A stretch of DNA of 64,000 bases. It comes from Oceanimonas sp. GK1. Lineage in GTDB: Bacteria; Pseudomonadota; Gammaproteobacteria; Enterobacterales; Aeromonadaceae. Location of the stretch: contig NC_016745.1 of the NCBI RefSeq assembly GCF_000243075.1, forward strand, positions 1,319,001 to 1,383,000. Reading direction: 5' to 3'. This document shows positions 4,486-21,387 of this stretch, in pieces; the first letter of the stretch is position 1, and each line of letters begins with the position of its first letter. The notes under the pieces are model-generated. The model ran no database searches. It worked only from the letters and a program-made list of their open reading frames with translations, and had not been told where the DNA came from. The position numbers were made by a program, and so were the translations under genes.

Positions 4486-4600
4486 TATGACGTCCGGTTC
4501 CGTAAATGAGTGGTAACACCAGCGATAAATCGGCATAGAATACCTTAGGGGGTAGTCAGCAACAATAGCTCACCCCGGGCCTGCCTGAGAGGACAAGACC

Positions 4601-5086: not shown

Positions 5087-5427
5087 CCGTGCTGGCATCT
5101 TGTGCGGACATATTTTGCTCCACTAGCGAAAGAATCTGTCGTATTTTCATTTGAAACTTCACCACCGCAATGTTAACGTTTGTGCGTTTTTAATACGCAC
5201 TTTTGTCGGGTTACTCATGGACGATGGCTCGCGTTTGCAAGGCTGCTCTTACTGAACAGTCGGGAATCGGGGAGCCCGTTCCGCAGCATTTCGTATTCGA
5301 CTCCTTCGCTCTTGTCCTACCTGCCCGCTTTTTTGAATTCACAAAGCGTCAATCGTTGTTGGCTAACATCAGCCTGCGTGCATGCGGCCAGACGGATGCT
5401 GGCTCCCGAACATTAAGAGACTGATAC
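5087..5427. other. 341-bp non-coding leader upstream of the secretion locus
   Basis: No credible gene is present; the short open frames here lack ribosome-binding sites. The segment is more AT-rich than its surroundings near 5101-5200. It contains the palindrome GTGCGT-N7-ACGCAC at 5182-5200 followed by TTTT. The palindrome could be an operator or a weak terminator for ybeL. This long leader probably holds the promoter of the five-gene locus, but I cannot assign -35 and -10 boxes confidently. Confidence 0.5.
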
Positions 5428-7008
5428 ATGTTTAAAAAGACCTTGCTTGCCTCCTCACTGGTGCTGGCCATCAGTGGCTGTGCCGTGACCCCGGAAAGGA
5501 TTTCTTCAGAACACATCAACGGCACCGTACAGGCCGATCTGGCCCGGCTGGCCGACGAGCAGGAGCAGGTGCAGGGCAGCATAGGACTGGAGGAAGCCAT
5601 TGCCCGGGCGGTGCGCAACAACCGGGACAGAAAACTGAAGGCACTGGAGTCGGCCATGGAGCAGGGGCAGCTGGAACTGGTCCGCCATGAAATGTTGCCC
5701 AGCCTGGCGGCATCAGCCGGTTATTCTGCCCGCAGCAATTATGCCGCCTCGGCCAGTGTGCCGTTTGACAATGGCCAGCCGGCGCCATTGGGAGACAACC
5801 CTTCCTACTCCATCTCCCAGGACAAGCAGCGTTCCACCTATGATCTGGCCCTGAGCTGGAATGTGCTGGATTTCGGCCTGTCTTATGTGCGTGCCGGACA
5901 ACATGCGGATCGCTACCTGATTGCCCGGGAGCGGGAACGCAAGGTGGCCCACAATATCGTGCAGGAAGTGCGCGGTGCCTACTGGCGGGCGGTGTCGGCC
6001 GAGCGACTGCTGCAGAAAATCGATCCGCTGATCAGCCAGGCCGGCTCCGCCCTTAATGACTCCCGCCGGGTGGAGCTGTTGCAGTTGCGCTCGCCGATGG
6101 AAGCCCTCTATTACCAGCGTGAGCTGCTGGATGTATTGCGGGCCCTGCAGACGCTGAAACAGGATCTGGCCAACGCCAAAACCGAGCTGGCCGCCCTGAT
6201 GGGCCTGAAACCGGGCACTGCATTTGAACTGCAGGATGTCGAGCAGCCGGATTTTGACATACCCGCCCTGACGGTAACGCTGTCGACCATGGAAGAGCTG
6301 GCGCTGACACAGCGCCCCGAGCTGATGGAAACCTATTATCAGCAGCGAATTTCCGCCGCCGACACCCGTGCCGCCCTGCTGAAAATGTTGCCGGGAATCA
6401 GCCTGACCGCCGGCGCCTACCACGACAGCAGTGATTACCTGCTGAACCAGGACTGGACCAGCCTGGGCGCCCAGGTGAGCTGGAACCTGTTTGATGTCTT
6501 CAAGGTGGGCAGTGAACGACGGCTGGCCAACACCCGGGAAGCGATCGCCGAAGAGCAGCGGCTGGCTTCCTCCATGGCGGTATTGACGCAGGTGCACCTG
6601 GCCAATATTCGCTATCAGGAGTCACAAAAGTCCTTTGAACTGGCCGATCGTTATCTGCAGGTGGCCAGCCGCATCAGCGAGCAGACCGCCAATGCCGCCC
6701 GCATGAAGCGAGGCTCGGAGCTGGAGCTGATCCGCGAGTCGCTCAATACCCTGCTGGCCGAGCTGCGCCGGGATGTGGCTTATGCGGATCTGCAAAACAG
6801 CTATGGCCGTATCTTTATGACCATGGGCATGGATTTACTGCCCGAAGACTATGCCCAGGGCAGTGTAAAACAATTGTCTGACACTATTGGTGCCCGTTTT
6901 GAGCGTTGGCAGCGAGGCGAGCTGGCGGAGGCCGGTGTCGAGGCGCCGGCCGGGAACACGACACCGGCTTCGGCCAACAACGATGCCAAACACGCCGAGG
7001 GGGCCTGA
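5428..7008 (+). CDS. TolC-family outer-membrane efflux/secretion lipoprotein
   Basis: The 526-residue product has a lipoprotein signal (MFKKTLLASSLVLAISGC, Cys18) and then two TolC/OEP repeats rich in long amphipathic helices. SIGLEEAIARAVRNNRDRKLKALE near residues 51-75 and the later TMEELALTQRPELMETYYQQRISAADTRAALLKMLPGISLTAG are typical OEP start-of-helix motifs. The family forms trimeric channels that span the outer membrane and periplasm and dock to HlyD/MFP adaptors. It is first in a five-gene run, one base before the adaptor gene. Its neighbours suggest it exports the giant protein encoded downstream rather than small molecules; that is inference. Confidence 0.92.
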   Translation: MFKKTLLASSLVLAISGCAVTPERISSEHINGTVQADLARLADEQEQVQGSIGLEEAIARAVRNNRDRKLKALESAMEQGQLELVRHEMLPSLAASAGYSARSNYAASASVPFDNGQPAPLGDNPSYSISQDKQRSTYDLALSWNVLDFGLSYVRAGQHADRYLIARERERKVAHNIVQEVRGAYWRAVSAERLLQKIDPLISQAGSALNDSRRVELLQLRSPMEALYYQRELLDVLRALQTLKQDLANAKTELAALMGLKPGTAFELQDVEQPDFDIPALTVTLSTMEELALTQRPELMETYYQQRISAADTRAALLKMLPGISLTAGAYHDSSDYLLNQDWTSLGAQVSWNLFDVFKVGSERRLANTREAIAEEQRLASSMAVLTQVHLANIRYQESQKSFELADRYLQVASRISEQTANAARMKRGSELELIRESLNTLLAELRRDVAYADLQNSYGRIFMTMGMDLLPEDYAQGSVKQLSDTIGARFERWQRGELAEAGVEAPAGNTTPASANNDAKHAEGA

Positions 7009-7009
7009 G

Positions 7010-7750
7010 GTGGGCAAGCTGGTTGGTTGCAAGGGGCTGCTGCTGGCGGCCCTGCTGTTGCCGGCGTGGTCCGGCCATGCCGAGGAATACAAGGCGCGGG
7101 CGGTGATCAAGGCGCTGGACAGGGCCGTGCTCTCGGGAGAGCTGGCGGCCCGGGTCAATCAGCTGCCCAAACGCGTGGGGGACAGCTTTCGTGAAGGAGA
7201 GCTGTTGATCGGGCTCGATTGCAGCCTGTATGAAGCCCAGGCCGCCAAGGTGGCCGCCGAAAACAAGGCGGCCAGAGTCAAGCTGGACAACGCCCGCCAG
7301 CTGAACGAACTGCGCTCCATCGGCAGCCTGGATGTGGCCCTGGCCCAGTCGGAATATGCCCAGACCCAGGCCGAACTGCGCATCGCCCGGCTGAACACCG
7401 AACGCTGCAGCATCAAGGCGCCCTATGCCGGCAAGGTGGTGACGGTGCTGGTCAACCGCCATGAAAACATTCGCCAGCAGCAGGAGTTGCTGGAGATAGT
7501 GGCCGATCAACGCCTGGAAGCCGAGGTGGTGGTGCCCGCCACCTGGCTGACCTGGTTACAGCCCGAGCTGCCGCTGACCCTGGCGCTTGATGAAACCGGG
7601 GCCAGGGTCGAGGCAACCCTGGCCGCCATCAGCCCGGCCATTGATCCGGTTAGCCAGACCCTGCTGCTGCGGGCCCGGCTCGCGCAGCCTTCGGGCATGA
7701 TGCCGGGCATGAGTGCCACCGCTTATTTCACCCGTGCCGGCGGCCAATAA
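7010..7750 (+). CDS. HlyD/MFP-type periplasmic adaptor subunit
   Basis: This is a 246-residue adaptor with a Sec-type signal (VGKLVGCKGLLLAALLLPAWSGHA). It has a split barrel-sandwich (lipoyl-like) domain: KRVGDSFREGELLIGLDCSLYEAQ near residue 50 and CSIKAPYAGKVVTVLVNRHENI near residue 135, separated by a short coiled-coil hairpin, then a beta barrel ending GMMPGMSATAYF. The GTG at 7010 is chosen because it follows the upstream TGA by one base and has GAGGGGG in front of it; an in-frame ATG at 6983 is an alternative. It probably bridges the TolC-like channel to an inner-membrane partner. It is short for an RND adaptor and no RND pump or ABC exporter gene lies nearby. Confidence 0.88.
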   Translation: MGKLVGCKGLLLAALLLPAWSGHAEEYKARAVIKALDRAVLSGELAARVNQLPKRVGDSFREGELLIGLDCSLYEAQAAKVAAENKAARVKLDNARQLNELRSIGSLDVALAQSEYAQTQAELRIARLNTERCSIKAPYAGKVVTVLVNRHENIRQQQELLEIVADQRLEAEVVVPATWLTWLQPELPLTLALDETGARVEATLAAISPAIDPVSQTLLLRARLAQPSGMMPGMSATAYFTRAGGQ

Positions 7751-7772
7751 CGCCAGGTTGTTTTTCAAGGAT

Positions 7773-7800
7773 GGGCAGGCCATGAACCTGTCCGTTTTTA
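7773..7800 (+). terminator. Hairpin plus U-rich tract between adaptor and giant gene
   Basis: GGGCAGG (7773-7779) can pair with CCTGTCC (7787-7793) through a CCATGAA loop, with one G-U pair, and GTTTTTA follows. This resembles an intrinsic terminator 20 bases before the start of the giant gene. It could attenuate read-through and set the ratio of channel to substrate, or end the first transcript. Confidence 0.5.
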
Positions 7801-7819
7801 CCCATCAGGGACCGATGCC

Positions 7820-10800
7820 ATGAACACGCCCAATAATGCCAAGCACTTACTCGGATTTCGTCGTAAACCGCTGATCACCGCCCTTGAGCCCCGCATCCTG
7901 CTCGACGGGGCGGCGGTGGCCACCGCCGTGGAGATGGTGACGGATGTCGACCACCAGGATGCGGCCAGCCACAGCACCGCGCCCGAGCAGTCGGTGCACT
8001 TTACCGCCCTGGCGCCAACCCAGGTGAGAGGAGCGGATCCGGCCCTGAACCAGGGCCGCAAGGAAGTGGCCTTTGTCGACACCGGGGTGGAAGACTACCA
8101 GACGCTGGTGGACGGCATTGGCGCCGGCATCGAGGTGCGGTTGCTCGACGCCGGCCAGGATGGGCTGGCGCAGCTGGCGGTATGGGCGCAACAAAATGAG
8201 GGTTACGACGCCATTCACCTGATGAGCCATGGCGATGAAGGTCAGGTGCAACTGGGCAGCCTGACCCTGAATGGCACCGAGGCCGAAAACCGCGCCGGCG
8301 AGCTGGGCATACTGGGCCGAGCCCTGAACCAGGATGGGGATCTGCTGCTGTATGGCTGTGACGTGGCCGGCGGCGAGGGCCAGGCCTTTGTGGAGCGGCT
8401 TGCTGAGCTCACCGGCGCCGACGTGGCGGCCTCGGATGACCTGACCGGCGCCGCCACCCTCGGCGGCGACTGGGAGCTGGAAGTGAACCGGGGCACCATC
8501 GACACGGATGATGACGGCATCTCGGCCGAGGCCATGGCGGCCTTTTCCCATACCCTGGCCGAACCCACGATCAAGAATGACTCAACATGGGTTATGGAGA
8601 CGAACGGTAATGATGCTGTGGGGCAGTCCTTTACCGTTACCGAGAGTGGGCGGCTGACCAAGATTGGTATTGCCCATTCTCTTAACGGCGTTACGCAGCT
8701 ACAAAATACTTCAACCTTGACGATTTACAAGGAGGAAGGTCTAGGCGGTGAAATAGTTCATGAACAGACCGGAATTGATCTTAAAAGCGTCGGTACCGTG
8801 AATGGCGACAATAGTTACACCCTTTATGAGATCGAGATTAACTACAACGGAGTACTTGAAGCGGGGTCGTATACCTTTGAATTCTCCAATCCCGAATCCT
8901 ATAGCCTGGTCATAGCTCAAGGAGGTTATGGCGGTGGGCTGCTTTATTATAACGGGACGCCTTTTTCAGATTTTGATCTTGCCTTCAGTGTCACCATCGA
9001 AACGGCTCCGGCCAATGCCGCGCCGGCCTTTGAATCGTCCCTGGGCGACGGCAGCGAGACTGTTCAGCTGGACGAAAACAGCGCCAACGGCACCACCGTA
9101 TTTGACGTTGATGCCAATAACGGCGATGGCGGTGCCACCGACAGCGGCCTGACCTACAGCATTGTGTCCGGCAATACCGACGGTGACCGGGACGGCAACC
9201 TGCCCTTTAACATTGACGCCACCACCGGGGTGATCACCGTCAACGACACCGCCGATCTGGACTTTGAAGACGGCACCGCCAGCTACACCCTGACGGTGCG
9301 GGCCGATGACGGCGGTGGCAGTAACAATACCGCCGATGCCACCGTTACCATCACCCTGCAGAACAGCGGCACCGGCGATGCCGTCGACTACGAGTCGGTC
9401 AGCAACAACGATGATAGCTTCGTCTCGTCCGGCCAGTCTTTTACCCTCACCGGCAACATGGTGGGGCAGAAACTCACCAACTATGGCTCGAGTATTCCCG
9501 GTGAAAATGGCAACTCCGATGCCTATATGGACTCTGTTTTTAGCCAGGATCGCACCGGTAATATTGGCGGTATCAGTGCCCCGGACGGCTATACCTTTCG
9601 CGCCAATATGTTTGATGTCTGGCCCTCGAGCAACGGCGGCGGTGCCGTCATGGCGGCGGGGCAGTCCATTACCGTCGTGGGCTTGCGTAACGGCCAGCAG
9701 GTGGTCTCGGCCACCGTCACCAGTTTTGCCTATGGCCAGGATCCCATCGCTCAGGGCGGTGCCTGGCAGCGCATTGATCTCACCGGCACCGACTTTTTGA
9801 CCACCGACATCGACACCGTCGAATTTGTCATCGGCGGCTCGATGAATTACCTGGCGGTGGACAACTTTGTTTACGACCACCTGGTGTTGGCCAACGACGC
9901 CCCCGTGCTTGGCAACCTGGATGGCGACGCCGTGGCCTGGCCCGGTGCGGGCAATACCGTGAGCCTGGATGCTGGCAGCGATTTGACCGTGACCGACACC
10001 GAGCTGGGTGCGCTCAACGGCGGCCTAGGCGACTGGTCCGGCGCCAGCCTGACGGTGCAACGTGCGGGCGGCGGCCTGGTGAACGACGTGCTGGGCTTCG
10101 AGACTGCCGGTGCCAGCTTCACTGTCTCCGGCGACGCGCTGCAGTCCGGCGGCCAGACCTTCGCCACCTTTACCAACAGCAATGGCGTGCTCACCGTCAG
10201 TTTCACCGGCAGCGGCACCACTGCCACCACGGCCCTGGTGCAGGAGGTGCTGCAAAGCCTCAACTACCGCAATGACACTCCCTATGGCGATGCCACCCTG
10301 AGCGTTAGTCTGAGTGACGGCACCAGCGCCACCAGCGCCGAGGTCACCGTCGCCAGCGATACCATCTACGTGGATCAGCTGGCCGACGACGGCGATGGCG
10401 ACACCGGCGACGGCTTCTCCCTGCGCGAGGCCGTGGCTCAGTCCGCCAGTCAGGACGGTGCTCAGACCCTGGTGTTCGGCTCAAGCCTGGCCGGCCAGAC
10501 CCTGATCCTGGACTCAAGCCTGGCGCTGAGCGAGAGCCTGACCCTGGATGCCGATGCGGCCCCCGGCCTGATCATCGGCGGCAGCGGCATCACCCTGGTG
10601 TCCGGGGTTAGCCTTTCCATCGGCAACGGCGCGGGCGACGGCCTAACGGTCAACAGCGCCATTGCCGGCGCCGGTGCCCTGGTCAAGACCGGGACCGGCA
10701 CCCTGACCCTGGGCGGCAGCAACGCCTACAGTGGCGGCACGACGGTCGAGGCCGGCACTCTGGCCGGCACCACCACCAGCCTGCAGGGGGACATCACCAA

Positions 10801-13800
10801 CAACGCCACCCTGACATTCGACCAGAGCGCCAACGGTACCTATACCGGCGTTATCGGCGGCAGCGGTGCCCTGGTCAAGGCCGGCGCCGGCACCCTGACC
10901 CTCAGCGGGACCAACGGCTACAGCGGCACCACCACGGTCACGGCGGGTCGCCTGGCCATTACCTCGGATGCCAACCTCGGCAGCGGTGCCCTGACCCTGG
11001 ACGGCGGCACCCTCAGCAACGGCAATGCCACCTTCACCCTCAGTAGGGATATTACCCTGGGGGCCGCGGGGGGCAGCGTCTTCGTCGTCAATGGTGACCT
11101 GACCCTGTCCGGCGTCATTTCCGGCAGCGGCTCGCTGACCAAGCTCGGTGGGCGGACCCTGACGCTGTCGGGCACCAATACCTACGGCGGCACCACTAAC
11201 GTCTCGGCGGGCACCCTGTCGGTGGTGGGCGACGCCAACCTGGGCTCCGGCAGCCTGACGCTGTCGGGCGGCACCCTGGCGGTCACCGCCAACGGCACCA
11301 TTGACAATGCCATCAATCTGGGCGTCGGCGGCGGCACGTTCTCCGCTGACAACATAATTACCCTGTCGGGGGTGATTTCCGGCACCGGCAGCCTGACCAA
11401 GACCGGCGGCTCCTGGCTCAGCCTGTACGGCAACAATAGCTATAGCGGCGACACCCACATCAACAGCGGCGGCGTTGGCGTCTATCACAACAATGCCCTG
11501 GGTGCCACATCCGGCCGCACCACGGTCGCCGATGGCGCGGCGCTGTCGCTGGGGAACAACATCACCCTGGCCGAGGACTTGACCCTCGCCGGCGCCCCCG
11601 GTTTCACCGGCGGAGGGGCACTCAGCTTGAGCGGCAGTGGTGATGCCACCCTCACCGGCGATATCACGCTGTCGGGGGATGCGGGCATTCGGGTGGCGCA
11701 ATCCGGATCCCAATTGACCCTGAGCGGCACCATCAGCGGCGACCATGCCCTGACCACAACGGGTAATGGCACCCTGGAACTGAGCGGCGGCAACAGCTAC
11801 AGCGGCGCCACCACCGTCTCCGCCGGTACTCTGCTGCTCAACGGCAGCCTGAACAACACCAGCGGTGTGACCGTGAATGCGGGCGCCATCCTGGCCGGCG
11901 GCGGCGATGGCGCGAGCACCGGCATCATCAACGGTGGCCTGACCGTCAACGGCACCCTGTCACCGGGCGCCGCGGCGGGGGACACCGCCATACTGGTGGT
12001 AAACGGCAACCTGGCCTTTGGCGCCACCGGCAGCCTGGTGGCGGATATCAAGGGCACCAGCCTGGGGGATGAGTACGATATTCTTTCCGTCCATGGCGGC
12101 GTGACCATCGACTCGGGCGCGACCCTGTCGGTCACCCATGATTACACGCCGGGTAACGGCGACAGTTATCGGCTGATCACCAATGACGGCAGCGACGCCA
12201 TCAGCGGCACTTTCGCCGGCCTGGCGGAAGGGGGTACCCTCAGCGCCGGCGGCAACAGTACCGTATTGACCGCCTATTACGGCGCCACCGACGGCGGCGC
12301 TACCAGTGGCGGCAACGAACTGATGCTGCAGGCGCCGGTGAACGCGCCGCCCGCCTTCGGCAACCTCAACGGCGGCGCCACCTTTGTGGAAGGCGGCAGC
12401 GCCGTGGTGATCGACGGCGATGTGACCGTGTCGGATACGGAGCTGGATGCCCTGGCCGGCGGCAATGGTAATTACGACGGTGCCACCGTCACCCTGTCTC
12501 GTCAGGGAGGCACCAGTGCCGACGATCAGTTCGGCAACGCCGGCCTGCTGGGCGCGCTGACTCAAGGCCAGAGCTTCACCTACAACGGCGTAACCCTGGG
12601 CACGGTCACCACCCTTTCGGACGGCCTGCTCACGCTCACCTTTAACGGCAACGCCACCTCGGCCATGGTCGATGGGGTGCTGCAGTCCCTCACCTATGCC
12701 AACGGAGCCGAGGATCCGCCTGTTTCCGTTACCCTGGACTGGACCTTCAGCGACGGCGCCGCCAACAGCGCCGGCAGCAACCAGACCCTGGTCAACATCA
12801 CGCCGGTTAACGATGCGCCGACCCTGAGCGCCACACCGGCCAACCCCACCTTCACCGAAGGCGGCTCGGCGGTGAACGTCTTCGATACGACCACCTTCAG
12901 CACGGTGGAAGCCGGTCAGAACATTACCGAGGTGACGCTGACGCTCACCAACCTGGCGGACGGCGCCCACGAAAAACTGGTTATCGACGATACCCAGGTG
13001 ACCCTGACCGGCGGCACCAGCGGCACCTCGACCGGCGGCAATGCGGTCGGCTATGCGGTGTCGGTGAGCGGCACCACGGCCACCATTACCCTGACGGGGA
13101 ATCGAGAGGCCGCCATCTGGTCGCTCTATGGCCCTACTGTGGCCTACCTGAACACCAGTGAGGACCCCACCGCCGGCGAGCGGGTGGCGACCATCACCTC
13201 GTTCAAGGACAGCGGTGGTGAGGCCAACGGCGGTGTCGACACGGCGGTGACGGCGGCGAGCTCCACCATCACCCTGGTGGCGGTCAACGATGCGCCGACC
13301 CTGACGGCCACCCCGAAAAACCCCACTTACACCGAGAATGGTGCTGCGGTGACCCTGTTCGACAACGTTAACGCGACGGCGGTGGAAAGCGAGCAGCACC
13401 TGAGCGGCCTGGTGCTGACCGCCAGCAACCTGAGCGACGGCGCGGCAGAGCGGTTCGGGGTCGACGGCAGCAGCATCACCCTGACCGACGGGGTCAGTGG
13501 TACCACCAGCGGCAATGGCCTGAGCTATTCGGTGGCGGTAAGCGGCGGCACTGCGACAGTGACGCTGAGCGGCGGCAATCTGTCGGCCGAGGGGCTGGAA
13601 GCCCTGATCGAGGGCATGACTTACCTTAATAGCAGCGAGGATCCGGGCACGGCCGACCGTGTGGTCACCCTCACCAGCCTGAGCGATGACGGCGGCGTGG
13701 CCGATGGCGGGGTGAACACCGCCTCCCTGTCCCTGGCATCGACGGTCACAGTAGTAGCGGTGAACGACGCCCCGGTGGCGGTGGATGACAGCGCCGCTGC

Positions 13801-16360
13801 GGTGGAAGCGGGCGGCATCGCCAACGGCACCGCGGGCAGCAGCGCCAGTGGCAATGTGCTGAGCGACGACACCGATGTGGATGGCGACGACAGCAAAACC
13901 GTGACCACCATTCGCACTGGTGCTGAGAGCGGCTCCGGCATCGGCGGTACCGTCGGCCAGTCGCTGGCAGGCCGGTACGGCAGCCTGATCCTGAATGCTA
14001 ACGGCAGCTACAGCTATGTGGTGGATGACAATAACGCCGAGGTACAGGCGCTGCGTGTCAGCGGCCAGACCCTGACCGACAGCTTCAGCTATACGGTGAC
14101 CGATACCGGTGGCCTGACCGACAACGCCACCCTGACCATCACCATTGAGGGTAGTAACGACGCCCCGGTGGCAGTGGATGACAGTGCCACTGCGGTGGAA
14201 GCGGGCGGCACCGCCAACGGCACCGCGGGCAGCGATGCCAGCGGCAACGTGTTGAGCAACGACAGCGATGCGGATGGTGCCGCCAATGGTGAGACGCAGA
14301 CCGTCACCGCCATTCGCACCGGTGCCGAGGGTGGTTCCGGCACCAGCGGTACCGTCGGCCAAGTGCTGGCGGGCCAGTACGGCAGCCTGACGCTGAACGC
14401 CGACGGCACCTACAGCTATGTCATCGACGAGAGCAATGCGGCGGTGCAGGCGCTGCGCCAGAGCGGCCAGACCCTGACCGACGTCTTCACCTATACCCTG
14501 AGCGACACCGCCGGCCTGACCGACAGCGCCACCCTGACCATCACCATCGAGGGCAGTAACGACGCCCCGGTGGCGGTGAATGACAGCGCCGCTGCGGTGG
14601 AAGCGGGCGGCATTGCCAACGGCACCGCCGGCAGTGGCGCCAGCGGCAATGTGCTGAGCAACGACACCGATGTGGATGGCGACGACAGCAAAACCGTCAC
14701 CGCCATTCGCACCGGCGCCGAGGGGGGCTCTGGCATCAGCGGTACTGTGGGTACTGTGCTGGCGGGTCAGTACGGCAGCCTGATCCTGAATGCTAACGGC
14801 AACTACAGCTATGTGGTGGATGAAAGCAACGCCGCGGTGCAGGCGCTGCGTGTCAGCGGCCAGACCCTGACCGACAGCTTCAGCTATACGGTGACCGATA
14901 CCGGTGGCCAGAGTGACAGTGCCACCCTGACCATCACCATTGACGGTCGCAACGACGCCCCGGTGGCGGTGAATGACAGCGCCACCGCGGTGGAAGCGGG
15001 CGGCAGCGCCAACGGCACCGCGGGCAGCGAGGCCAGCGGAAACGTACTGAGCAACGACACCGATCTGGACGACGGCGACAGCAAAACCGTCACCGCCATT
15101 CGCACCGGCGCCGAGGACGGCAGCGGTACCGGCGGCACCGTCGGCCAGGCGTTGATCGGCCAGTACGGCCGCCTGACCCTGAATGCGGACGGCAATTACA
15201 GCTATGTGATTGATGAGAACAATACCGAGGTACAGGCGCTGCGCCAGAGCGGCCAGACCCTGACCGAGGTCTTCACCTATACCCTGAGCGACACCGATGG
15301 CCTGACCGACAGCGCCACTCTGACCATCACTATCGACGGTCGCAATGACGCCCCGGTGGCCCAGGGCACTGCCATTGATGAGCAGTGGAATTTTGGGGCG
15401 GATTATCGCCGAGATATTTCCACCCTGTTTACCGATGTGGACAGCGCCGCCAATGGGGAAGCACTCGATTTTGTCATTCAGGGGCTGCCCGAGGGGCTGA
15501 GCTATCACCCCAGCACCGGGGTGATTGTCGGTAAGCCGGTTGAGTCCGGCAAGTTTGTGATTACCCTGACGGCGGTGGACCAGGCCGGCGCCAGTGTGAC
15601 TCGCCACTTCCAGCTGGAGGTGTTGGCTCCCCCGAAGGAAGAGCCGGCGAACCGGCCGGTAAACCGGATTGATATGCCTGCGGTCCGGGTAGAAAAAACG
15701 CCGGTGGTGGTTGAACTGTCTGCCTTGCCCCAGGGGCTGGTGAACCAGGATTCCGGCGAGCCTTCCGGGGCGGGCTTTGTGGCCCCCGTGGGCCCCGGCG
15801 AAAGGGTATTGCTGGCGGAGCCCGGCGCCTTGGTGGTGCAAACCGTGAATGCCGAAGGGCAGACCTCGCTCAGGGCATCGGTGGACGTCAATGTCAACGA
15901 GCAGGGGGAGGTGGTGTTCAGCGAGGGGCAGCAACAGGCCCTGGACGCGGTAGCGCTGAGGGTATCCCGTATCGTTTCCGCTGCCGGCAACGAGCTGGTG
16001 ATCAGCATTGTTGATGGTCAGGGAACACAGGGACAGCGTTACAGTGGCGCCTTGCCCGACGGCACCGAACTGCCAGCCTGGATCAGCGTGGATCCCAAAA
16101 CCGGTCATGTCCGCCTGCTGGCTCCCGCCGACATCCGTGAGCTGACCCTGCAAATTCAGGCCACCGGCAGCGATGGCCAGGTGCGCATCCTGGAAATCCG
16201 GGTAGACGTAGAGGCGCTGCAAGGTGGCCAGCAGGCCGGCACCCCCGAGCCCCTGGCTGCGGCTAGTGGTTTTGTTCCGCTGTCCGAGCAACTGGCCAGC
16301 GAGGTGGACGGAATGGAAAGCTATGGCAGCCGGTTGCTGGGCATCTTGAGCACGGTGTAA
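7820..16360 (+). CDS. Giant LEPR-XLL / DUF4347 / VCBS repeat surface protein
   Basis: The 2846-residue product is the likely export substrate. Domain order: LEPR-XLL motif (LEPRILLDG, residues 22-30) without a classical signal peptide; DUF4347 module (about 82-228) with HLMSHG (His137) and LLLYGCD (Cys180); an unusual AT-rich-encoded domain (about 249-395); a cadherin-like domain (about 398-515); an IYVDQLADDGDGD...FSLREA CSLREA-like motif near 850-880; five autotransporter-associated beta-strand repeats (starting at 952, 1016, 1104, 1190 and 1308); further NDAPTL-type Ig-like units; four VCBS repeats (1982-2508); a putative-Ig domain (about 2509-2610); and a C-terminal region without RTX nonapeptides. 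Such proteins are usually adhesins or matrix proteins; the actual function here is unknown. It is followed by the membrane-fusion genes after three bases. Confidence 0.9.
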   Translation: MNTPNNAKHLLGFRRKPLITALEPRILLDGAAVATAVEMVTDVDHQDAASHSTAPEQSVHFTALAPTQVRGADPALNQGRKEVAFVDTGVEDYQTLVDGIGAGIEVRLLDAGQDGLAQLAVWAQQNEGYDAIHLMSHGDEGQVQLGSLTLNGTEAENRAGELGILGRALNQDGDLLLYGCDVAGGEGQAFVERLAELTGADVAASDDLTGAATLGGDWELEVNRGTIDTDDDGISAEAMAAFSHTLAEPTIKNDSTWVMETNGNDAVGQSFTVTESGRLTKIGIAHSLNGVTQLQNTSTLTIYKEEGLGGEIVHEQTGIDLKSVGTVNGDNSYTLYEIEINYNGVLEAGSYTFEFSNPESYSLVIAQGGYGGGLLYYNGTPFSDFDLAFSVTIETAPANAAPAFESSLGDGSETVQLDENSANGTTVFDVDANNGDGGATDSGLTYSIVSGNTDGDRDGNLPFNIDATTGVITVNDTADLDFEDGTASYTLTVRADDGGGSNNTADATVTITLQNSGTGDAVDYESVSNNDDSFVSSGQSFTLTGNMVGQKLTNYGSSIPGENGNSDAYMDSVFSQDRTGNIGGISAPDGYTFRANMFDVWPSSNGGGAVMAAGQSITVVGLRNGQQVVSATVTSFAYGQDPIAQGGAWQRIDLTGTDFLTTDIDTVEFVIGGSMNYLAVDNFVYDHLVLANDAPVLGNLDGDAVAWPGAGNTVSLDAGSDLTVTDTELGALNGGLGDWSGASLTVQRAGGGLVNDVLGFETAGASFTVSGDALQSGGQTFATFTNSNGVLTVSFTGSGTTATTALVQEVLQSLNYRNDTPYGDATLSVSLSDGTSATSAEVTVASDTIYVDQLADDGDGDTGDGFSLREAVAQSASQDGAQTLVFGSSLAGQTLILDSSLALSESLTLDADAAPGLIIGGSGITLVSGVSLSIGNGAGDGLTVNSAIAGAGALVKTGTGTLTLGGSNAYSGGTTVEAGTLAGTTTSLQGDITNNATLTFDQSANGTYTGVIGGSGALVKAGAGTLTLSGTNGYSGTTTVTAGRLAITSDANLGSGALTLDGGTLSNGNATFTLSRDITLGAAGGSVFVVNGDLTLSGVISGSGSLTKLGGRTLTLSGTNTYGGTTNVSAGTLSVVGDANLGSGSLTLSGGTLAVTANGTIDNAINLGVGGGTFSADNIITLSGVISGTGSLTKTGGSWLSLYGNNSYSGDTHINSGGVGVYHNNALGATSGRTTVADGAALSLGNNITLAEDLTLAGAPGFTGGGALSLSGSGDATLTGDITLSGDAGIRVAQSGSQLTLSGTISGDHALTTTGNGTLELSGGNSYSGATTVSAGTLLLNGSLNNTSGVTVNAGAILAGGGDGASTGIINGGLTVNGTLSPGAAAGDTAILVVNGNLAFGATGSLVADIKGTSLGDEYDILSVHGGVTIDSGATLSVTHDYTPGNGDSYRLITNDGSDAISGTFAGLAEGGTLSAGGNSTVLTAYYGATDGGATSGGNELMLQAPVNAPPAFGNLNGGATFVEGGSAVVIDGDVTVSDTELDALAGGNGNYDGATVTLSRQGGTSADDQFGNAGLLGALTQGQSFTYNGVTLGTVTTLSDGLLTLTFNGNATSAMVDGVLQSLTYANGAEDPPVSVTLDWTFSDGAANSAGSNQTLVNITPVNDAPTLSATPANPTFTEGGSAVNVFDTTTFSTVEAGQNITEVTLTLTNLADGAHEKLVIDDTQVTLTGGTSGTSTGGNAVGYAVSVSGTTATITLTGNREAAIWSLYGPTVAYLNTSEDPTAGERVATITSFKDSGGEANGGVDTAVTAASSTITLVAVNDAPTLTATPKNPTYTENGAAVTLFDNVNATAVESEQHLSGLVLTASNLSDGAAERFGVDGSSITLTDGVSGTTSGNGLSYSVAVSGGTATVTLSGGNLSAEGLEALIEGMTYLNSSEDPGTADRVVTLTSLSDDGGVADGGVNTASLSLASTVTVVAVNDAPVAVDDSAAAVEAGGIANGTAGSSASGNVLSDDTDVDGDDSKTVTTIRTGAESGSGIGGTVGQSLAGRYGSLILNANGSYSYVVDDNNAEVQALRVSGQTLTDSFSYTVTDTGGLTDNATLTITIEGSNDAPVAVDDSATAVEAGGTANGTAGSDASGNVLSNDSDADGAANGETQTVTAIRTGAEGGSGTSGTVGQVLAGQYGSLTLNADGTYSYVIDESNAAVQALRQSGQTLTDVFTYTLSDTAGLTDSATLTITIEGSNDAPVAVNDSAAAVEAGGIANGTAGSGASGNVLSNDTDVDGDDSKTVTAIRTGAEGGSGISGTVGTVLAGQYGSLILNANGNYSYVVDESNAAVQALRVSGQTLTDSFSYTVTDTGGQSDSATLTITIDGRNDAPVAVNDSATAVEAGGSANGTAGSEASGNVLSNDTDLDDGDSKTVTAIRTGAEDGSGTGGTVGQALIGQYGRLTLNADGNYSYVIDENNTEVQALRQSGQTLTEVFTYTLSDTDGLTDSATLTITIDGRNDAPVAQGTAIDEQWNFGADYRRDISTLFTDVDSAANGEALDFVIQGLPEGLSYHPSTGVIVGKPVESGKFVITLTAVDQAGASVTRHFQLEVLAPPKEEPANRPVNRIDMPAVRVEKTPVVVELSALPQGLVNQDSGEPSGAGFVAPVGPGERVLLAEPGALVVQTVNAEGQTSLRASVDVNVNEQGEVVFSEGQQQALDAVALRVSRIVSAAGNELVISIVDGQGTQGQRYSGALPDGTELPAWISVDPKTGHVRLLAPADIRELTLQIQATGSDGQVRILEIRVDVEALQGGQQAGTPEPLAAASGFVPLSEQLASEVDGMESYGSRLLGILSTV
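10673..11930 (+). repeat. Five autotransporter-associated beta-strand repeats (coding)
   Basis: The pattern G-[AS]-L-x-K-x-G-x-G-T-L-T-L-x-G-x-N-x-Y-S-G-x-T-x-V-x-A-G recurs with starts at 10673, 10865, 11129, 11387 and 11741. This beta-helix repeat is best known from type V autotransporter passengers. Here there is no autotransporter barrel at the C-terminus of the protein. Confidence 0.8.
13763..15343 (+). repeat. Four tandem VCBS-type repeats (coding)
   Basis: Units begin N-D-A-P-V-A-V at 13763, 14156, 14558 and 14951, with lengths of 131, 134, 131 and 131 codons. A fifth NDAPVA at 15344 begins a different domain. Units 1 and 3 share a 70-base identical stretch (14045-14114 and 14840-14909). 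Units 2 and 4 resemble each other (RQSGQTLT, FTYTLSDT). Confidence 0.93.
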
Positions 16361-16363
16361 GGA

Positions 16364-17710
16364 ATGGATGTGAATCAACAGGTTGCCGCCCTGATGGGGC
16401 TGGAACAACAATTGCGCAAGGCCGGCAGCCTTGCGCAGCTGTTTTATACCATTGTCAATCAAACGCACCAGTGCGTTGCCTATACCCAGGGCGTGCTGCT
16501 GACCGGCGAGCCCGACCGGCTGCAGGTGATGGCGGCGTCCGATATTCCCACGGTGGACTATACCTCGCCGTTTGTGGCCTGGATTGAGCGACTGGAGCGC
16601 CATCTGTCACGGCAGGAAAGGGCCGGGCAGTTACTGGCTCTGGAATGCGGCCAGGCCCCCGAGGCTTTGCTGTCCGACTGGCAGGAAATGGCGCCGGCGC
16701 ATGTGCTTCGTGTCCCGCTTCGGGCGGCGGCACAGGAAGGGCGATTGCTGGGTGTGTTGCTGTTGTTTCGTTCCGAACCCTGGTCCGAACGGGAGCGGGG
16801 TGTCATGGAGCACCTGGGGGGCACCATGGGCCACGCCCTGTTTGCCCTGCAGCGCAGAACACCATTCCAGCATGTGCTGCGGCGCCTGCGTACCCGCAGA
16901 AACGGGCTGTTGCTGGCACTCCTGTTATTGCTGGTCATGGGGCTGCCGGTACGACTCAGTGCCCTGGCCCCGGTGGAGGTGATTGCCCGGGATCCTCGGG
17001 TGATCAGCGCGCCGCTCAATGGGGCCGTCAGGCATCTTGAGGTGGAGCCCAATCAGCCCATACGGCAAGGCGATCCGCTGGTGCAGTTCGAGGATACCGA
17101 GCTGGCCAGCGAAGTGGACATTGCTCAGCAGGCGCTGCTGGTGGCCCAGGCCGAGCTGAGAACGGTACAGCAAAGCGGTTTTATGGATCCCACGCAAAAA
17201 GCGCGCCTGGCAGAGCTGGAATCAAAAGTCAGGCTTCGGCAGGCCGAGCTTCACCACGCCCGCTCTCGCCTGGATAAAACCATGCTGACGGCGGCCGGCA
17301 GCGGCATTGTGGTGGTGGGGGATCCCAACGAATGGAAGGGAAGGCCGGTCAAAATCGGTGAGCGCATCATGCTGCTGGCCGACCCCGAGGTCATTGAGCT
17401 GGAGCTGATGCTGGCGGTGAAGGATTCGATTGCCCTGAGGCCCGAGGCCGAAGTCCGAGTGTTTCTCGACAGTGACCCCCTGTCCTCCCTGACAGCCAGG
17501 TTGCACCTTGCGGATTACAAGCCCCAGCAGACCCCCGATAACCGCATGGCATATCGGCTGGTGGCGCGGTTGGAGGCCGGGCCGCCGCCGGCGAGCCTGC
17601 CGCGCATCGGCACCCGGGGCACGGCAAAGGTCTATGGCGAGCGGGTCAGCTTGTTTTTTTACCTGTTCCGGCGGCCGATCACCAGCGCCCGTCAGTGGCT
17701 GGGCTGGTAA
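16364..17710 (+). CDS. GAF-like domain fused to a membrane-anchored HlyD-type adaptor
   Basis: The 448-residue product has two parts. Residues 1 to about 165 are a soluble GAF-like region (LEQQLRKAGSLAQLFYTIVNQ...AYTQGVLLTGEPDRLQVMAASD...LLGVLLLFRSEPWSERERGVMEHLGGTMGHAL). A single membrane segment follows near 183-200 (NGLLLALLLLLVMGLPVRL). The periplasmic part then has a barrel-sandwich/hairpin (PVEVIARDPRVISAPLNGAVRHLEVEPNQPIRQGDPLVQFEDTEL) and a coiled coil. The topology implies a cytoplasmic GAF domain coupled to a periplasmic adaptor. It starts three bases after the giant gene and ends three bases before the M50 gene, so the genes are co-transcribed. What the GAF domain senses, or whether it only scaffolds, cannot be read from sequence. 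Confidence 0.85.
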   Translation: MDVNQQVAALMGLEQQLRKAGSLAQLFYTIVNQTHQCVAYTQGVLLTGEPDRLQVMAASDIPTVDYTSPFVAWIERLERHLSRQERAGQLLALECGQAPEALLSDWQEMAPAHVLRVPLRAAAQEGRLLGVLLLFRSEPWSERERGVMEHLGGTMGHALFALQRRTPFQHVLRRLRTRRNGLLLALLLLLVMGLPVRLSALAPVEVIARDPRVISAPLNGAVRHLEVEPNQPIRQGDPLVQFEDTELASEVDIAQQALLVAQAELRTVQQSGFMDPTQKARLAELESKVRLRQAELHHARSRLDKTMLTAAGSGIVVVGDPNEWKGRPVKIGERIMLLADPEVIELELMLAVKDSIALRPEAEVRVFLDSDPLSSLTARLHLADYKPQQTPDNRMAYRLVARLEAGPPPASLPRIGTRGTAKVYGERVSLFFYLFRRPITSARQWLGW

Positions 17711-17713
17711 GTC

Positions 17714-19831
17714 ATGCAGGAAACCACGGTGTTGCCCGCCCTGCGCCAGGATCTGCGTTTGCTGCCGGGGGCCCCCGACGAGAGTGGGGCGCCCCGCTGG
17801 TTGTTATTTGATGCTCTGCGTAACCGGTATTTCACGCTGTCGGCCGAGGCTCTGTATCTGGTCAGGCACTGGCAGGCCGGCCTCGCCGCCGCGCGTTTTT
17901 TATCTCAACTGCAAGCCCGCGGCCACGACTACCAGCCCGAAGAGTTAACGGCCTTTATTGAATTTATGGTGGCCAACCACCTGGTCGAGTCGCGCTCCGT
18001 GGACGACACTGAACGACTCTATCGGCATTACAGCGCCCGGTTGCTCGGCTTTTGGCGTTGGCTGATACACCACTATCTGTTTATTCGATTGCCCCTGTTC
18101 CGGCCGGATCCCTGGCTGGCACGCTGGACGCCCCGGCTGGGCTGGCTGTTTGCCCCTGCCACCCATTACCTGCTGCTCGGGCTCGGCGGTATTGGCCTGA
18201 TACTGGCCATACGTCAGTGGGACACATTCTGGTCCACTTTTTTGCATTTCTTTACGCTGGAAGGGCTGGCGCTGTACGGAGTGACCCTGGCGATGGTGAA
18301 AAGCGCCCATGAGCTGGGGCATGCCTTTGCCGCCAACCGTCTGGGGTGCCGGGTGGCTTCCATGGGGGTGGCTTTGCTGGTGATGTTTCCCGTGCTCTAT
18401 ACCGATACCACCGATGCCTGGCGTCTCAGATCCCGGGCGGCCCGACTGCGGATCGTCACCGCCGGTGTACGCACCGAACTCTATCTTGCCCTGCTGGCCA
18501 CCTTTCTATGGAACCTGCTGCCCGATGGCCCCTTGCGCAGCGCGGCGTTTTTTGTGGCCACTACCAGCTGGGTGACCTCGGTCCTGGTGAATATCAGCCC
18601 GTTTCTGCGTTTTGATGGCTACTATGCTTTTTCCGACTGGCTGGGCATGGAAAACCTGCAATCGCGTGCGTTTGCCTTTGGCCGCTGGCGTCTTCGTCAT
18701 CTGCTGCTGGGGCTGAATGAGCCCCTTCCCGAGCCGCAGCCACGTGGCCGGGTCAGGCTGCTGGTGGCGTATGCCTGGGCAACCTGGGTATATCGGTTTT
18801 TTCTGTTTCTGGGCATTGCCTTGCTGGTCTATCACCTGTTTTTCAAGGTGCTGGGGATCGCCCTGTTTGTCGTGGAAATACTCTGGTTTATTGTACTGCC
18901 CATCTGGAGGGAAATCGGCATGTGGTGGAAAAAGCGGGCTGCGTGTTCACTGAGTGCCGGTCGCCTGCTTGGCTGGGGGCTGGCGGTTGGCATACTGCTG
19001 CTGGGGCTGGTGCCGTTGCCGGTCAGCGTGCCCGTCCCTGCCATTTTACAGGCCCAGAATGAGCAAACCCTGTTTGCCGCCGAGCCGGCGGTGATCGCCG
19101 AGGTGAGTGTACGCCAGGGGGATAGCGTCCGGGCCGGACAACCGCTGTTGCGGCTGGTATCCGAGCAACTGGACTTTGAGCTGCGGCAGGTGGAGGAAGA
19201 GCTGCGGCTGGCGCAGCAGTTGCTGGATCGCAGTGGCAGCTCATCCACAGAAAAAGGCAAGCTGGCCGTCTTCAAGCGGCAACGGCAACGCCTGCAGGAG
19301 CAGCGCAGCGGCTTGCTGGCGCGTCAGGCCCGGCTCACCATTCGAGCGCCCTTTGATGGCCGCATCACACAAATGGCCCAGTGGCACCCCGGAGTGTGGG
19401 TGGGGGCCGATACCGCCCTGCTGGCGGTGACGGATACGGCGCGTCTGCAACTGAAAGGGTATCTGGACGAACGGTACCTTCATTTGATCGGGCCGGGCAG
19501 CAAGGGAGTATTTGTCGCCGATCGCCCCGGCGTGAATGCGCTGCCGGTTGAGGTAAACGAGGTGGATATCGGAGCCATATTCTCGCTGCCCGAGGGAGAG
19601 CTGAGCTCGGAATACGGTGGTCCCATTGCGGTGCGGCGTGTCGAAGAAGGCCTGTTGGTGCCCGAGCAGGGGCGGTATCGTATCTCCATGACGCTGACCG
19701 GTGCCGGTGATGAAGCGGGGAGGAATACCCGCCTGCCCGGCCTGGTCAGGCTGGAAGGGGAGCGGCGCAGCTGGTTATGGCAGCAAGGGCGCAGGGTGAT
19801 GGCGGTCCTGATCCGGGAAAGCGGCTTCTGA
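17714..19831 (+). CDS. PqqD-like / M50 (site-2 protease-like) / HlyD fusion membrane protein
   Basis: The 705-residue product has three modules. Residues 1-95 resemble a PqqD/RRE-type winged helix (RWLLFDALRNRYFTLSAEALYLVRHWQAG...ELTAFIEFMVANHLVES). Next comes a multi-pass M50 core with the zinc motif HELGH (199-203) and a second motif NISPFLRFDGYYAFSDWL, whose Asp301 is the expected third zinc ligand. After two or more further membrane segments there is a periplasmic HlyD-like barrel-sandwich/hairpin (FAAEPAVIAEVSVRQGDSVRAGQPLLRLVSEQ and RLTIRAPFDGRITQM). M50 enzymes cleave within or near membranes. Here the enzyme, or a transporter derived from it, occupies the place an ABC exporter would hold in a type I system. 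It is the last gene of the locus, convergent with lnt. Confidence 0.88.
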   Translation: MQETTVLPALRQDLRLLPGAPDESGAPRWLLFDALRNRYFTLSAEALYLVRHWQAGLAAARFLSQLQARGHDYQPEELTAFIEFMVANHLVESRSVDDTERLYRHYSARLLGFWRWLIHHYLFIRLPLFRPDPWLARWTPRLGWLFAPATHYLLLGLGGIGLILAIRQWDTFWSTFLHFFTLEGLALYGVTLAMVKSAHELGHAFAANRLGCRVASMGVALLVMFPVLYTDTTDAWRLRSRAARLRIVTAGVRTELYLALLATFLWNLLPDGPLRSAAFFVATTSWVTSVLVNISPFLRFDGYYAFSDWLGMENLQSRAFAFGRWRLRHLLLGLNEPLPEPQPRGRVRLLVAYAWATWVYRFFLFLGIALLVYHLFFKVLGIALFVVEILWFIVLPIWREIGMWWKKRAACSLSAGRLLGWGLAVGILLLGLVPLPVSVPVPAILQAQNEQTLFAAEPAVIAEVSVRQGDSVRAGQPLLRLVSEQLDFELRQVEEELRLAQQLLDRSGSSSTEKGKLAVFKRQRQRLQEQRSGLLARQARLTIRAPFDGRITQMAQWHPGVWVGADTALLAVTDTARLQLKGYLDERYLHLIGPGSKGVFVADRPGVNALPVEVNEVDIGAIFSLPEGELSSEYGGPIAVRRVEEGLLVPEQGRYRISMTLTGAGDEAGRNTRLPGLVRLEGERRSWLWQQGRRVMAVLIRESGF

Positions 19832-19869
19832 CTTCATATCTTGTCAGGTAGCCGCGTTGTCCCTTCGGC

Positions 19870-21387
19870 TTACTTGAACAGCTGCCGCTCGGCCATGACC
19901 AGCTGCGCCGCCGGCTGACGGCAACGGGCGGCAATCAGCAGGCTGAGGGCCAGCACCGCCAGCAGCGGCAGGTTGCCAAAGCGGGCATAGGGGGTCAGCC
20001 CGGTCATGCCAATCACCTCGGCGGTCAGTACTCCCTGCTCAAACTGGGGCAGGCTGGCGGCCATACGGCCCTTCTCATCGGTGACCAGGGTCACCCCGTT
20101 GTTGGTGGCGCGGATCATCGGCCGGCCCAGCTCCAGGGCGCGCATGCGGGCGATTTGCTGATGTTGCCAGGGGCCGATGGAGCGGCCAAACCAGGTGTCG
20201 TTCGATACCGTTAGCAGGTAGTCGGTAGTGGGCTTCATGTTGGCCCGCACCAGCCCGGGAAAGGCCACCTCATAACAGATGGCCACGCTCAGATCCTGGC
20301 CAGCGGCGTTAATGTCGGCCTGGCCGGACTCGCCCCGGGAAAAGGATGACATCGGCAGATTGAAAAACGGTGCCAAGGGCCGCAGCCAGTCGCCAAAGGG
20401 CACGAATTCGCCGATGGGCACCAGTTGCTGCTTGTAGTAGCGGTTGTCCTGGCCCGGCTGGTACTGGCCGCTGCCCAGGCCCAGCACGGCGTTGTACACC
20501 TCGCCCTGTCCCGGGCGTGACACCAGGCCGGTGATGAGGGCCTGACCCCGTTCAAACATCAGCTTGTCGACCTGCTCCAGCCAGGGCGCCAGCTGCTGCT
20601 CCGAGGCGGGCAGCGCCGACTCGGGCCAGATCACCACATCGGCATTGAGGGCCGGCCGGGTCAGTGTTAGGTAGCGTTTCAGGCTGAGCTCCAGCTGGCC
20701 CGGAATCCATTTCAGCGACTGCTCGATATTGCCCTGGATCAGCGCTACCCGCAGGGCTTGGGTGGGAGAGACCCATTGCAGTTGCTGGCTGGCCATGCCA
20801 AGGCCCCACAGCACGCAGGCAAAGGCTGCCGCCCGCCAGCGCAGTTCGGCGCCCAGCCAGTACAGGGCGGCGGCGGAAAAGGTCAGCAGCCAGCTGATGC
20901 CCTGCACCCCGAGCATGGGGGCCAGCCCGGCCAGCGGGCCGTCCAGCTGGGAGTAGCCGAACCACAGCCAGGGAAAGCCGGTGAGCATCCAGCCTCGCAG
21001 CCAGTCGGCGCCGATCAGCAACACCGGGAGCACCCACAGCAGCCGCGCCTTGGGCGACGCCACCAGGCGGTGGGCCAGCCACAGCGCCAGGCCGGTATAG
21101 GCGGCGAGATAGGCGGCCAGCAGGGCCACCAGCACAAAGGCCACCGGCAGCGACAGGCCGCCGAACATCGTCATGCTGTTGTGGATCCACCAAAGACCGG
21201 GCAGGTATAACCCTAAGCTCCAGGCAAAGCCGCGGCGGGCAGCCGGGCCGGGGGCACAATGGTGAGTGAAGGCGAACAGCCCGGCCAGCGACACCAGCGC
21301 CAGGGGCCAGAAATCAAAGGGGCTGAAGGCCAGAACGCCAAGGGCCCCGCACAGCAGGGCCCCGAACAATGGCAGCAATTTACGCAC
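19870..21387 (-). CDS. lnt: Apolipoprotein N-acyltransferase
   Basis: Lnt adds the third acyl chain to lipoproteins at the outer face of the inner membrane. The 505-residue product has N-terminal membrane segments (LLPLFGALLCGALGVLAFSPFDFWPLALVSLAGLF) and a C-terminal nitrilase-like domain with VIWPESALP (catalytic Glu), a lysine in RYYKQQLVPIGEFVPF and the cysteine in LSVAICYEVAFP. The stop directly abuts the accessory locus (38-base gap, convergent). The start is one base from the corC stop, so the order corC-lnt is an operon, as in E. coli. Confidence 0.97.
   Translation of the reverse strand: MRKLLPLFGALLCGALGVLAFSPFDFWPLALVSLAGLFAFTHHCAPGPAARRGFAWSLGLYLPGLWWIHNSMTMFGGLSLPVAFVLVALLAAYLAAYTGLALWLAHRLVASPKARLLWVLPVLLIGADWLRGWMLTGFPWLWFGYSQLDGPLAGLAPMLGVQGISWLLTFSAAALYWLGAELRWRAAAFACVLWGLGMASQQLQWVSPTQALRVALIQGNIEQSLKWIPGQLELSLKRYLTLTRPALNADVVIWPESALPASEQQLAPWLEQVDKLMFERGQALITGLVSRPGQGEVYNAVLGLGSGQYQPGQDNRYYKQQLVPIGEFVPFGDWLRPLAPFFNLPMSSFSRGESGQADINAAGQDLSVAICYEVAFPGLVRANMKPTTDYLLTVSNDTWFGRSIGPWQHQQIARMRALELGRPMIRATNNGVTLVTDEKGRMAASLPQFEQGVLTAEVIGMTGLTPYARFGNLPLLAVLALSLLIAARCRQPAAQLVMAERQLFK

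Follow-up and report, generated by a model that had tools for sequence, protein, structure and literature searches.

A five-gene locus in Oceanimonas sp. GK1 that may export a giant LEPR-XLL protein without an ABC exporter

A SecA-bearing locus that contains no ATP-binding cassette (ABC) transporter has been described in five phyla (Kamneva, Poudel and Ward 2015; PMC4452313). In the sections of that paper available to us, SecA was proposed as the ATPase and M50 as the pore, and the role of the locus was called completely unknown. Here we describe a related locus in a 64,000-nucleotide stretch of Oceanimonas sp. GK1 (contig NC_016745.1, positions 1,319,001 to 1,383,000; G000:C1:1319001-1383000), which we refer to as the window and which belongs to a 3.53-Mb genome of 99.99% completeness. 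Five neighbouring genes there encode a TolC-like lipoprotein, a HlyD-type adaptor, a giant LEPR-XLL protein, a GAF-HlyD adaptor and an M50-HlyD membrane protein. We suggest, with a rough probability of 0.55, that they form a dedicated ABC-free machine for export and surface display of the giant, belonging to a branch without SecA; the mechanism is given in outline.

The five genes lie on the + strand at 5428..19831, with intergenic gaps of 1, 69, 3 and 3 bases; these gaps presuppose that the HlyD gene starts at the GTG at 7010. A preliminary description of this DNA had reported five co-directional genes with these gaps and no ABC ATPase in the block. Re-reading of the locus confirmed the genes and the gaps, and family scans of the locus proteins found no ABC exporter of the type I kind among the five. 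The features are as follows.

5428..7008, + strand: TolC/OEP-type outer-membrane lipoprotein, 526 residues (Pfam OEP, 8.6e-40)
7010..7750, + strand: periplasmic HlyD-type adaptor, 246 residues (HlyD_3, 2.1e-19; RND_mfp above cut-off)
7820..16360, + strand: giant LEPR-XLL protein, 2846 residues, likely substrate (domain and repeat matches)
7883..7924, + strand: leader motif LEPRILLDGAAVAT, giant residues 22-35 (same pattern near the N-termini of relatives' giants)
8066..8557, + strand: DUF4347 domain, giant residues 83-246 (Pfam, 2e-54)
16277..16357, + strand: C-terminal stretch PLSEQL...YGSRLLGIL of the giant (resembles the ends of many window-branch giants)
16364..17710, + strand: GAF-HlyD adaptor, 448 residues (HlyD domain match, predicted fold)
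17714..19831, + strand: M50-HlyD membrane protein, 705 residues (Peptidase_M50 plus HlyD domains)
17714..18043, + strand: N-terminal domain of M50-HlyD, three strands then helices (prediction)
18308..18322, + strand: HELGH zinc motif of the M50 domain (HExxH kept in 29/30 aligned sequences, split and cut frames left out)
18590..18625, + strand: NISPFLRFDGYY, second metal-ligand motif of M50 (D301 invariant in a 32-sequence alignment)

The set thus has both a HlyD-type adaptor, with a signal-peptide-like N-terminus, and a TolC-type outer-membrane partner, whose N-terminal hydrophobic stretch closes with a lipobox-like SGC. The locus shares these two parts and a neighbouring giant repeat protein with type I systems (HlyBD-TolC, LapBCE). 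Unlike those systems, it has no ABC exporter, its three adaptors include two fused to GAF or M50 domains, and its likely substrate carries an N-terminal motif and no RTX-type repeats (0 matches in a simple pattern search). RTX repeats are not universal among type I substrates.

Two other known families are also comparable. Among NCBIfam models the M50 protein matches daptide_HExxH best (residues 38-395, 1.5e-38), with 133 bits and so under the cut-off of 300, a similarity shared with M50 proteases of ribosomally synthesized and post-translationally modified peptides (RiPPs; daptide HExxH, YydH/LiaK). In contrast to those proteases, the window's M50 domain is fused to an adaptor, and its neighbour is a giant protein rather than a peptide. 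The SecA2 accessory Sec system, like the sister branch described below, uses a second SecA for special substrates; the sister-branch protein differs in lacking nearly all sequence similar to housekeeping SecA past approximately residue 700 and in having adaptors adjoining it.

The closest relative is the SecA_DEAD locus of Kamneva et al. (2015). In the sections available, that locus likewise brings together M50-HlyD, GAF-HlyD, HlyD and sometimes OEP, with no ABC transporter; the window's branch differs in lacking a SecA-like gene and in having TolC and a LEPR giant in the run. We call the window locus a SecA-less variant of a known, uncharacterised locus. Those sections name no substrate of any kind and do not mention LEPR, an N-terminal motif or a SecA-less branch, and the main text has no words starting with LEPR, giant or M50 (it writes Peptidase_M50). 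The parts of PMC3482391 consulted contain nothing on an export machine for LEPR giants, and no description of their export route was found in the literature searched, which consisted of Creative Commons-licensed papers. As far as these searches go, the giant as likely substrate, the branch-matched N-terminal motif and the whole plasmid copies are new. The preliminary description had proposed a distinct export machine in which an M50-derived protein would act as exporter or process the substrate; a conserved M50-HlyD/GAF-HlyD unit with LEPR giants agrees with this in part, and the part of PMC4452313 cited above indicates that the machine is not wholly new.

We found that the M50-HlyD/GAF-HlyD pair is a conserved and widespread unit. 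Sampling of the class revealed relatives of M50-HlyD in 41 of 274 genomes (E up to 1e-10), and sampling of the phylum in 90 of 398 (E up to 1e-40). A scan of named genomes covered the best 80 loci of 566 relatives, a set biased to close relatives, and included Pseudomonas, Azospirillum, Rhizobium, Nitrospira, Pelagibacteraceae, Aliarcobacter, Paraburkholderia and others. GAF-HlyD lay near M50-HlyD on the same strand in 78 of these 80 loci; HlyD was present in 68 and TolC in 50, as counted in stored flanks, some of them cut short. A locus is also present in Azospirillum brasilense (L169). The records named Pelagibacteraceae (L078, L079, L093-L095, L102) carry the machine, and the longest giant visible in them has 2,640 residues. 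Pelagibacteraceae are a group with very small genomes.

LEPR giants keep company with M50-HlyD. When the 274 class genomes were searched with NF012209 (LEPR-8K), 20 matched at E up to 0.0015, a threshold chosen after the list was seen, and 18 of the 20 had M50-HlyD, compared with the baseline of 41/274 (Fisher p 5e-15). At the curated cut-off 33 genomes matched, 22 of them with M50-HlyD; in 8 of the other 11 the match was in frames shorter than 500 residues. LEPR giants beside this machine were found in Halomonas as well as in Pseudomonas, Nitrospira, Pelagibacteraceae and others. Such giants are also common in Planctomycetota.

The window giant matches NF012209 at its N-terminus (17 bits and 22.8 bits; curated cut-off 17). 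It contains DUF4347, cadherin/VCBS and PATR repeats, and a single cysteine in its 2846 residues. We consider it the likely substrate of the five-gene set, and probably adhesive. The leader pattern of the window's kind is roughly [LIM]x[AS]LE[PQS]R[ILMV][ML][FL]D[GA]AxxAT. A strict form of the motif, composed after examples were seen, occurred within the first 120 residues of 38 of the 74 giant-like frames with an uncut start and in only 1 of 666 other frames; the simple gene caller puts some starts wrongly at high G+C. The single other match (L097, 1396 residues) is a giant slightly below the composition threshold. At the C-terminus, a [LFIV]-x-x-Q-[LIVF] stretch was present in 36/51 giant-like frames on the window's side, 1/10 on the SecA side and 49/644 other frames; the pattern was made after looking at the ends, so its p value is unusable, and a few of the 36 matches (L105, second L152 frame) look accidental.

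The machine has two branches. In a tree of 44 M50-HlyD proteins, all 14 with a neighbouring SecA-like gene fell on one side (support 96/95). That side also holds 3 proteins without such a neighbour, for one of which (L063, genome G081) the SecA-like gene is on another contig, and the other side consists of 27 proteins without one.

The leader variant (D-[GA]-A versus S-A-D) appears to follow the machine branch. Of the 40 sequences taken from the leader pattern, which admitted only D or S and yielded many named sequences outside the tree but close to the window protein, 38 had D after [FLYV], all from loci of the window's kind. The remaining two (L063, L074) had S, and both are on the SecA side. 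A wider pattern gave 18 resolved leaders from 11 SecA-bearing genomes, a count that leaves out 2 G107 sequences, and all had S (SAD, with one SAE and one SAS). Among genomes without a SecA-like gene, G119, G224, G116 and G177 have D, as does a 99-residue frame of G120 that is likely to be noise; G052, G190 and G094 have S, and G206 has A. In the tree, G190 and G206 belong to the SecA side, and G177 sits at the base of the opposite side; G052 and G094 were not placed there, and the G213 leader was left out of the variant count. The Fisher p of 5e-15 for leader and branch is overstated, given near-copy Pseudomonas sequences and one protein present in both sets.

The SecA-like gene of the sister branch, an example of which is MexAM1_META1p2400 of Methylobacterium extorquens AM1 (PMC4452313), is tied to M50-HlyD. 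In the class sample, SecA-like proteins of at least 290 bits were encoded at 17 places in 16 genomes, all with M50-HlyD (16/16; p 3e-15), and 16 of the 17 places adjoin M50-HlyD; a more distant SecA-like gene in G060 is likewise beside M50-HlyD. In the phylum sample (E up to 1e-86), 34 of 398 genomes had a SecA-like gene, and all 34 were among the 90 with M50-HlyD (p 4e-25, with several genomes of a shared genus and with G107 in both samples). Of the 42 places, 30 lie downstream of a listed M50-HlyD gene at a distance of 5 kb or less; scoring covered only the two top M50 candidates of each genome, which leaves the remaining 12 unplaced. The protein keeps the Walker A, DEAD-type and second nucleotide-binding domain (NBD2) motifs, and nearly all sequence that matches housekeeping SecA beyond approximately residue 700 is absent. 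In L056:10830-12785 and relatives, the ATPase is truncated after the second nucleotide-binding domain.

The window's own genome (G000) has one SecA above cut-off (C1:955904, a 978-residue open frame), the housekeeping protein; a second match is below cut-off, and a search for an accessory SecA in this genome found none. At three loci with no SecA-like gene in view (L062, L065, L074), no other motor was seen among some neighbours scanned. The earlier statement that the energy source is not evident can be made more precise, since the sister branch has a SecA-like ATPase in this position.

The M50-HlyD protein retains the hallmarks of an M50/site-2 protease (S2P), an HExxH and a distal DG motif. 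H199, E200 and H203 are invariant across the 32 M50-HlyD sequences aligned. The protein consists of an N-terminal beta3-alpha3 domain, M50 helices and a MacA-like adaptor (414-689); it is polytopic by predicted helices, and its predicted M50 part matches RseP. In G025, an M50-HlyD-like protein (L071 8701-11187) has lost HExxH and retained the distal DG motif. GAF-HlyD consists of a GAF domain (approximately residues 1-166), one likely membrane helix and a MacA-like adaptor (174-439), and aligned with the sister-branch GAF-HlyD of L062 with an hhalign probability of 99.2.

Whole copies of the five-gene set are also present on Enterobacteriaceae and Azospirillum plasmids. M50-HlyD relatives were found on 55 of 72,556 plasmid records (Escherichia 18, Azospirillum 13, Citrobacter 8, others); the Citrobacter and Hafnia plasmids are known here by the M50-HlyD match alone. 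NZ_CP104683.1 encodes a 4457-residue giant, with LESRQLFDGAA near its N-terminus, followed by TolC, HlyD, GAF-HlyD and M50-HlyD in a row. This complete set (L171; also L168 9778-16073) is carried by an E. coli plasmid of the IncF type and is flanked by IS1 and IS5-like insertion sequences. The same gene order occurs on one Kosakonia and one Azospirillum plasmid, and the leader of the Kosakonia giant is LEPRMLFDGAIAAT. Few complete E. coli genomes contain the adaptor part (24/5426; 22 with at least 80% of the query).

We infer from the gene set and its co-occurrences that the five genes probably export the giant. The LEPR...LDGAA leader would bring the giant to M50-HlyD, perhaps via its cytosolic N-terminal domain. 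A SecA-type motor would then drive the unfolded chain through the inner membrane, beginning with its N-terminus. The dedicated SecA-like ATPase would be this motor in the sister branch, and in the window's branch it would most likely be housekeeping SecA/SecYEG, a guess to which we give slightly less than even odds. The M50 zinc site would cut the leader or a membrane-bound stub; for cleavage of the leader, the odds seem to us about even. The way out would be formed by the three adaptors, docked to the TolC partner, and the C-terminus of the giant, which is conserved, would act last, in release or retention. A broader proposal is that these loci are a separate secretion-system class for giants, in which an M50-HlyD gate recognises and cuts the LEPR leader and feeds a HlyD/GAF-HlyD/TolC conduit, with SecA-type power (own or dedicated), branch-matched leaders and mobility on plasmids. 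We regard this as tentative and rather doubtful.

Several observations weigh against ABC-free export by a dedicated machine as outlined here, some generally and others in favour of particular alternatives. The class sample is less regular than the named loci: of 35 M50 stretches, which include distant relatives and short contigs and many of which are cut at contig ends, 26 had GAF-HlyD (or a large form), 9 had TolC and 16 had a SecA-like gene. LEPR is not exclusive to the machine, as two LEPR genomes show no M50-HlyD: G213, with a 7373-residue open frame and its own type I exporters, and G076, whose LEPR frame is cut by the contig. The N-terminal domain of M50-HlyD might, weakly, be read as similar to a RiPP recognition element (RRE). 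Its matches are weak (TfuB1, E 0.03; TbiB1, E 0.17), glycoside hydrolases rank above them at E 0.025, and PqqD matched in 1 of 32 members (E 0.12); that no PqqD or RRE chain appears in the fold list carries no weight.

In the window's branch the search for a dedicated SecA-like gene found none, which makes the motor there a guess. M50-HlyD itself might instead form the channel through the inner membrane, powered by proton motive force or by folding of the chain outside the cell, with no SecA in the window's branch. The protein is polytopic, the 27 window-side proteins in the tree have no SecA-like gene in view (stored flanks only for named and plasmid sequences), the window's genome has one above-cut-off SecA, and a pore role for M50 was already proposed in the part of PMC4452313 cited above. 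However, the match of the predicted M50 part to RseP and the intact Walker-type motifs of the ATPase retained in the sister branch argue against a self-sufficient channel. Known proteins of the S2P fold are proteases and not conduits. We consider this alternative unlikely, and yet the likeliest of the three.

Still less likely, a type I ABC exporter encoded elsewhere would move the giant, and the five-gene set would only assist or process it. The window's genome does have a Lap-type exporter (LssB, 985 bits) with HlyD, LapD and a LapG-like C93 protease, which could in principle serve the giant. The Lap system has its own kind of substrate, and the LapD and LapG-like genes beside this exporter count against its serving the giant. 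These genes are at G000:C1 2770000-2789900 (L039), adjoining an O-antigen-ligase-like gene. Among the 80 named loci, L133 alone contains an ABC fragment of type I-like character; this cut piece (229 bits to the type I query) lies approximately 9 kb upstream of M50-HlyD, with unrelated genes between. A Vibrio LEPR giant with C-terminal RTX and serralysin domains (PMC10868602, in the part consulted) is a caution that some LEPR proteins may leave by type I export; the window giant has no RTX-type repeat.

We found that type I ABC exporters do not track M50-HlyD in the class sample. TIGR03375 (LssB, the type I model) was above cut-off in 51 of 274 genomes, 7/41 with M50-HlyD and 44/233 others (p = 1.0); at a looser limit the counts were 14/41 and 67/233 (p = 0.58). 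For each genome, these searches scored only the top candidates of a first look (up to 21 and 4). Five M50-HlyD genomes (G053, G052, G153, G194, G216; completeness 97-100%) gave 8 TIGR03375 matches (E up to 1e-60), of which 5 were above the MsbA cut-off, 3 matched MsbA best but below it, and none reached the type I cut-off. The possibility, named in the preliminary description as a refutation, that such strains always carry a dedicated ABC exporter is not borne out in this sample. The weight of these genomes is set by what is in view: the whole set only in G053, a finished sister-branch genome; in G153, a TolC-HlyD-GAF-HlyD run of the window's type that breaks off within the M50 gene; in G194, M50-HlyD with no GAF-HlyD or TolC found nearby; in G052 and G216, cut M50 copies. 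We think it probable that export of the giant proceeds without an ABC exporter, a view we have lowered slightly because few exporter-free genomes have the whole set in view.

A hidden ATPase common to the window-branch loci was not seen among the 12 clusters present in at least 5 of the 80 named loci (frames of at least 90 residues). These were read as adaptors, giants, TolC, shadow frames, Pseudomonas-specific neighbours and a 17-locus ABC-like cluster; this reading covers part of the 12, and not every cluster was identified. ABC-like frames numbered 23, in 18 of the 80 loci, and 22 were small (133-378 residues) with only 26-85 bits to the type I query; 5 of the 35 class stretches had such frames. 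In L048 the frame beside the M50 gene encodes an ABC protein of two domains, and none of the 25 families listed for it, of 39, is a membrane domain.

The least likely alternative is that ordinary Sec, acting on an unusual signal, takes the giant to the periplasm while the TolC/HlyD/M50 set has another product to export or mature, for example a peptide. This reading draws on the daptide match and on an N-terminal hydropathy (1.93, versus 2.06 for the window TolC signal) with which an ordinary Sec signal would be compatible, but is opposed by the giant gene lying between adaptor genes in one run, the coincidence of LEPR and M50-HlyD genomes, the leader variant that follows the machine branch, and the lack of a recurrent small gene among frames of at least 90 residues.

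Beside the five-gene block, on the opposite strand, are a 180-residue frame with no Pfam match and then leuS (recognised by sequence); lnt is on the other flank. An Rfam scan of window positions 4000-22000 gave no match, and a promoter scan gave 1 match compared with a mean of 3.5 in shuffles. Elsewhere in the window (46896-49103, - strand), a double-length FecCD permease, with two FecCD stretches in one protein, adjoins a TonB-dependent receptor gene. In related loci, small genes that we take to be phage tail-collar-like (L106 14927-15577 and L124 12982-13575, both Pseudomonas) and genes annotated as tail fibre (Kosakonia, L170 16134-18241) sit between or beside the machine and the giant.

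With a likely substrate, two matched leader variants and five-gene sets on plasmids, the orphan locus of 2015 is now testable by gene deletion. If ABC-free export of the giant by this machine is true, an adaptor-TolC conduit can run on a SecA-type motor without an ABC exporter.

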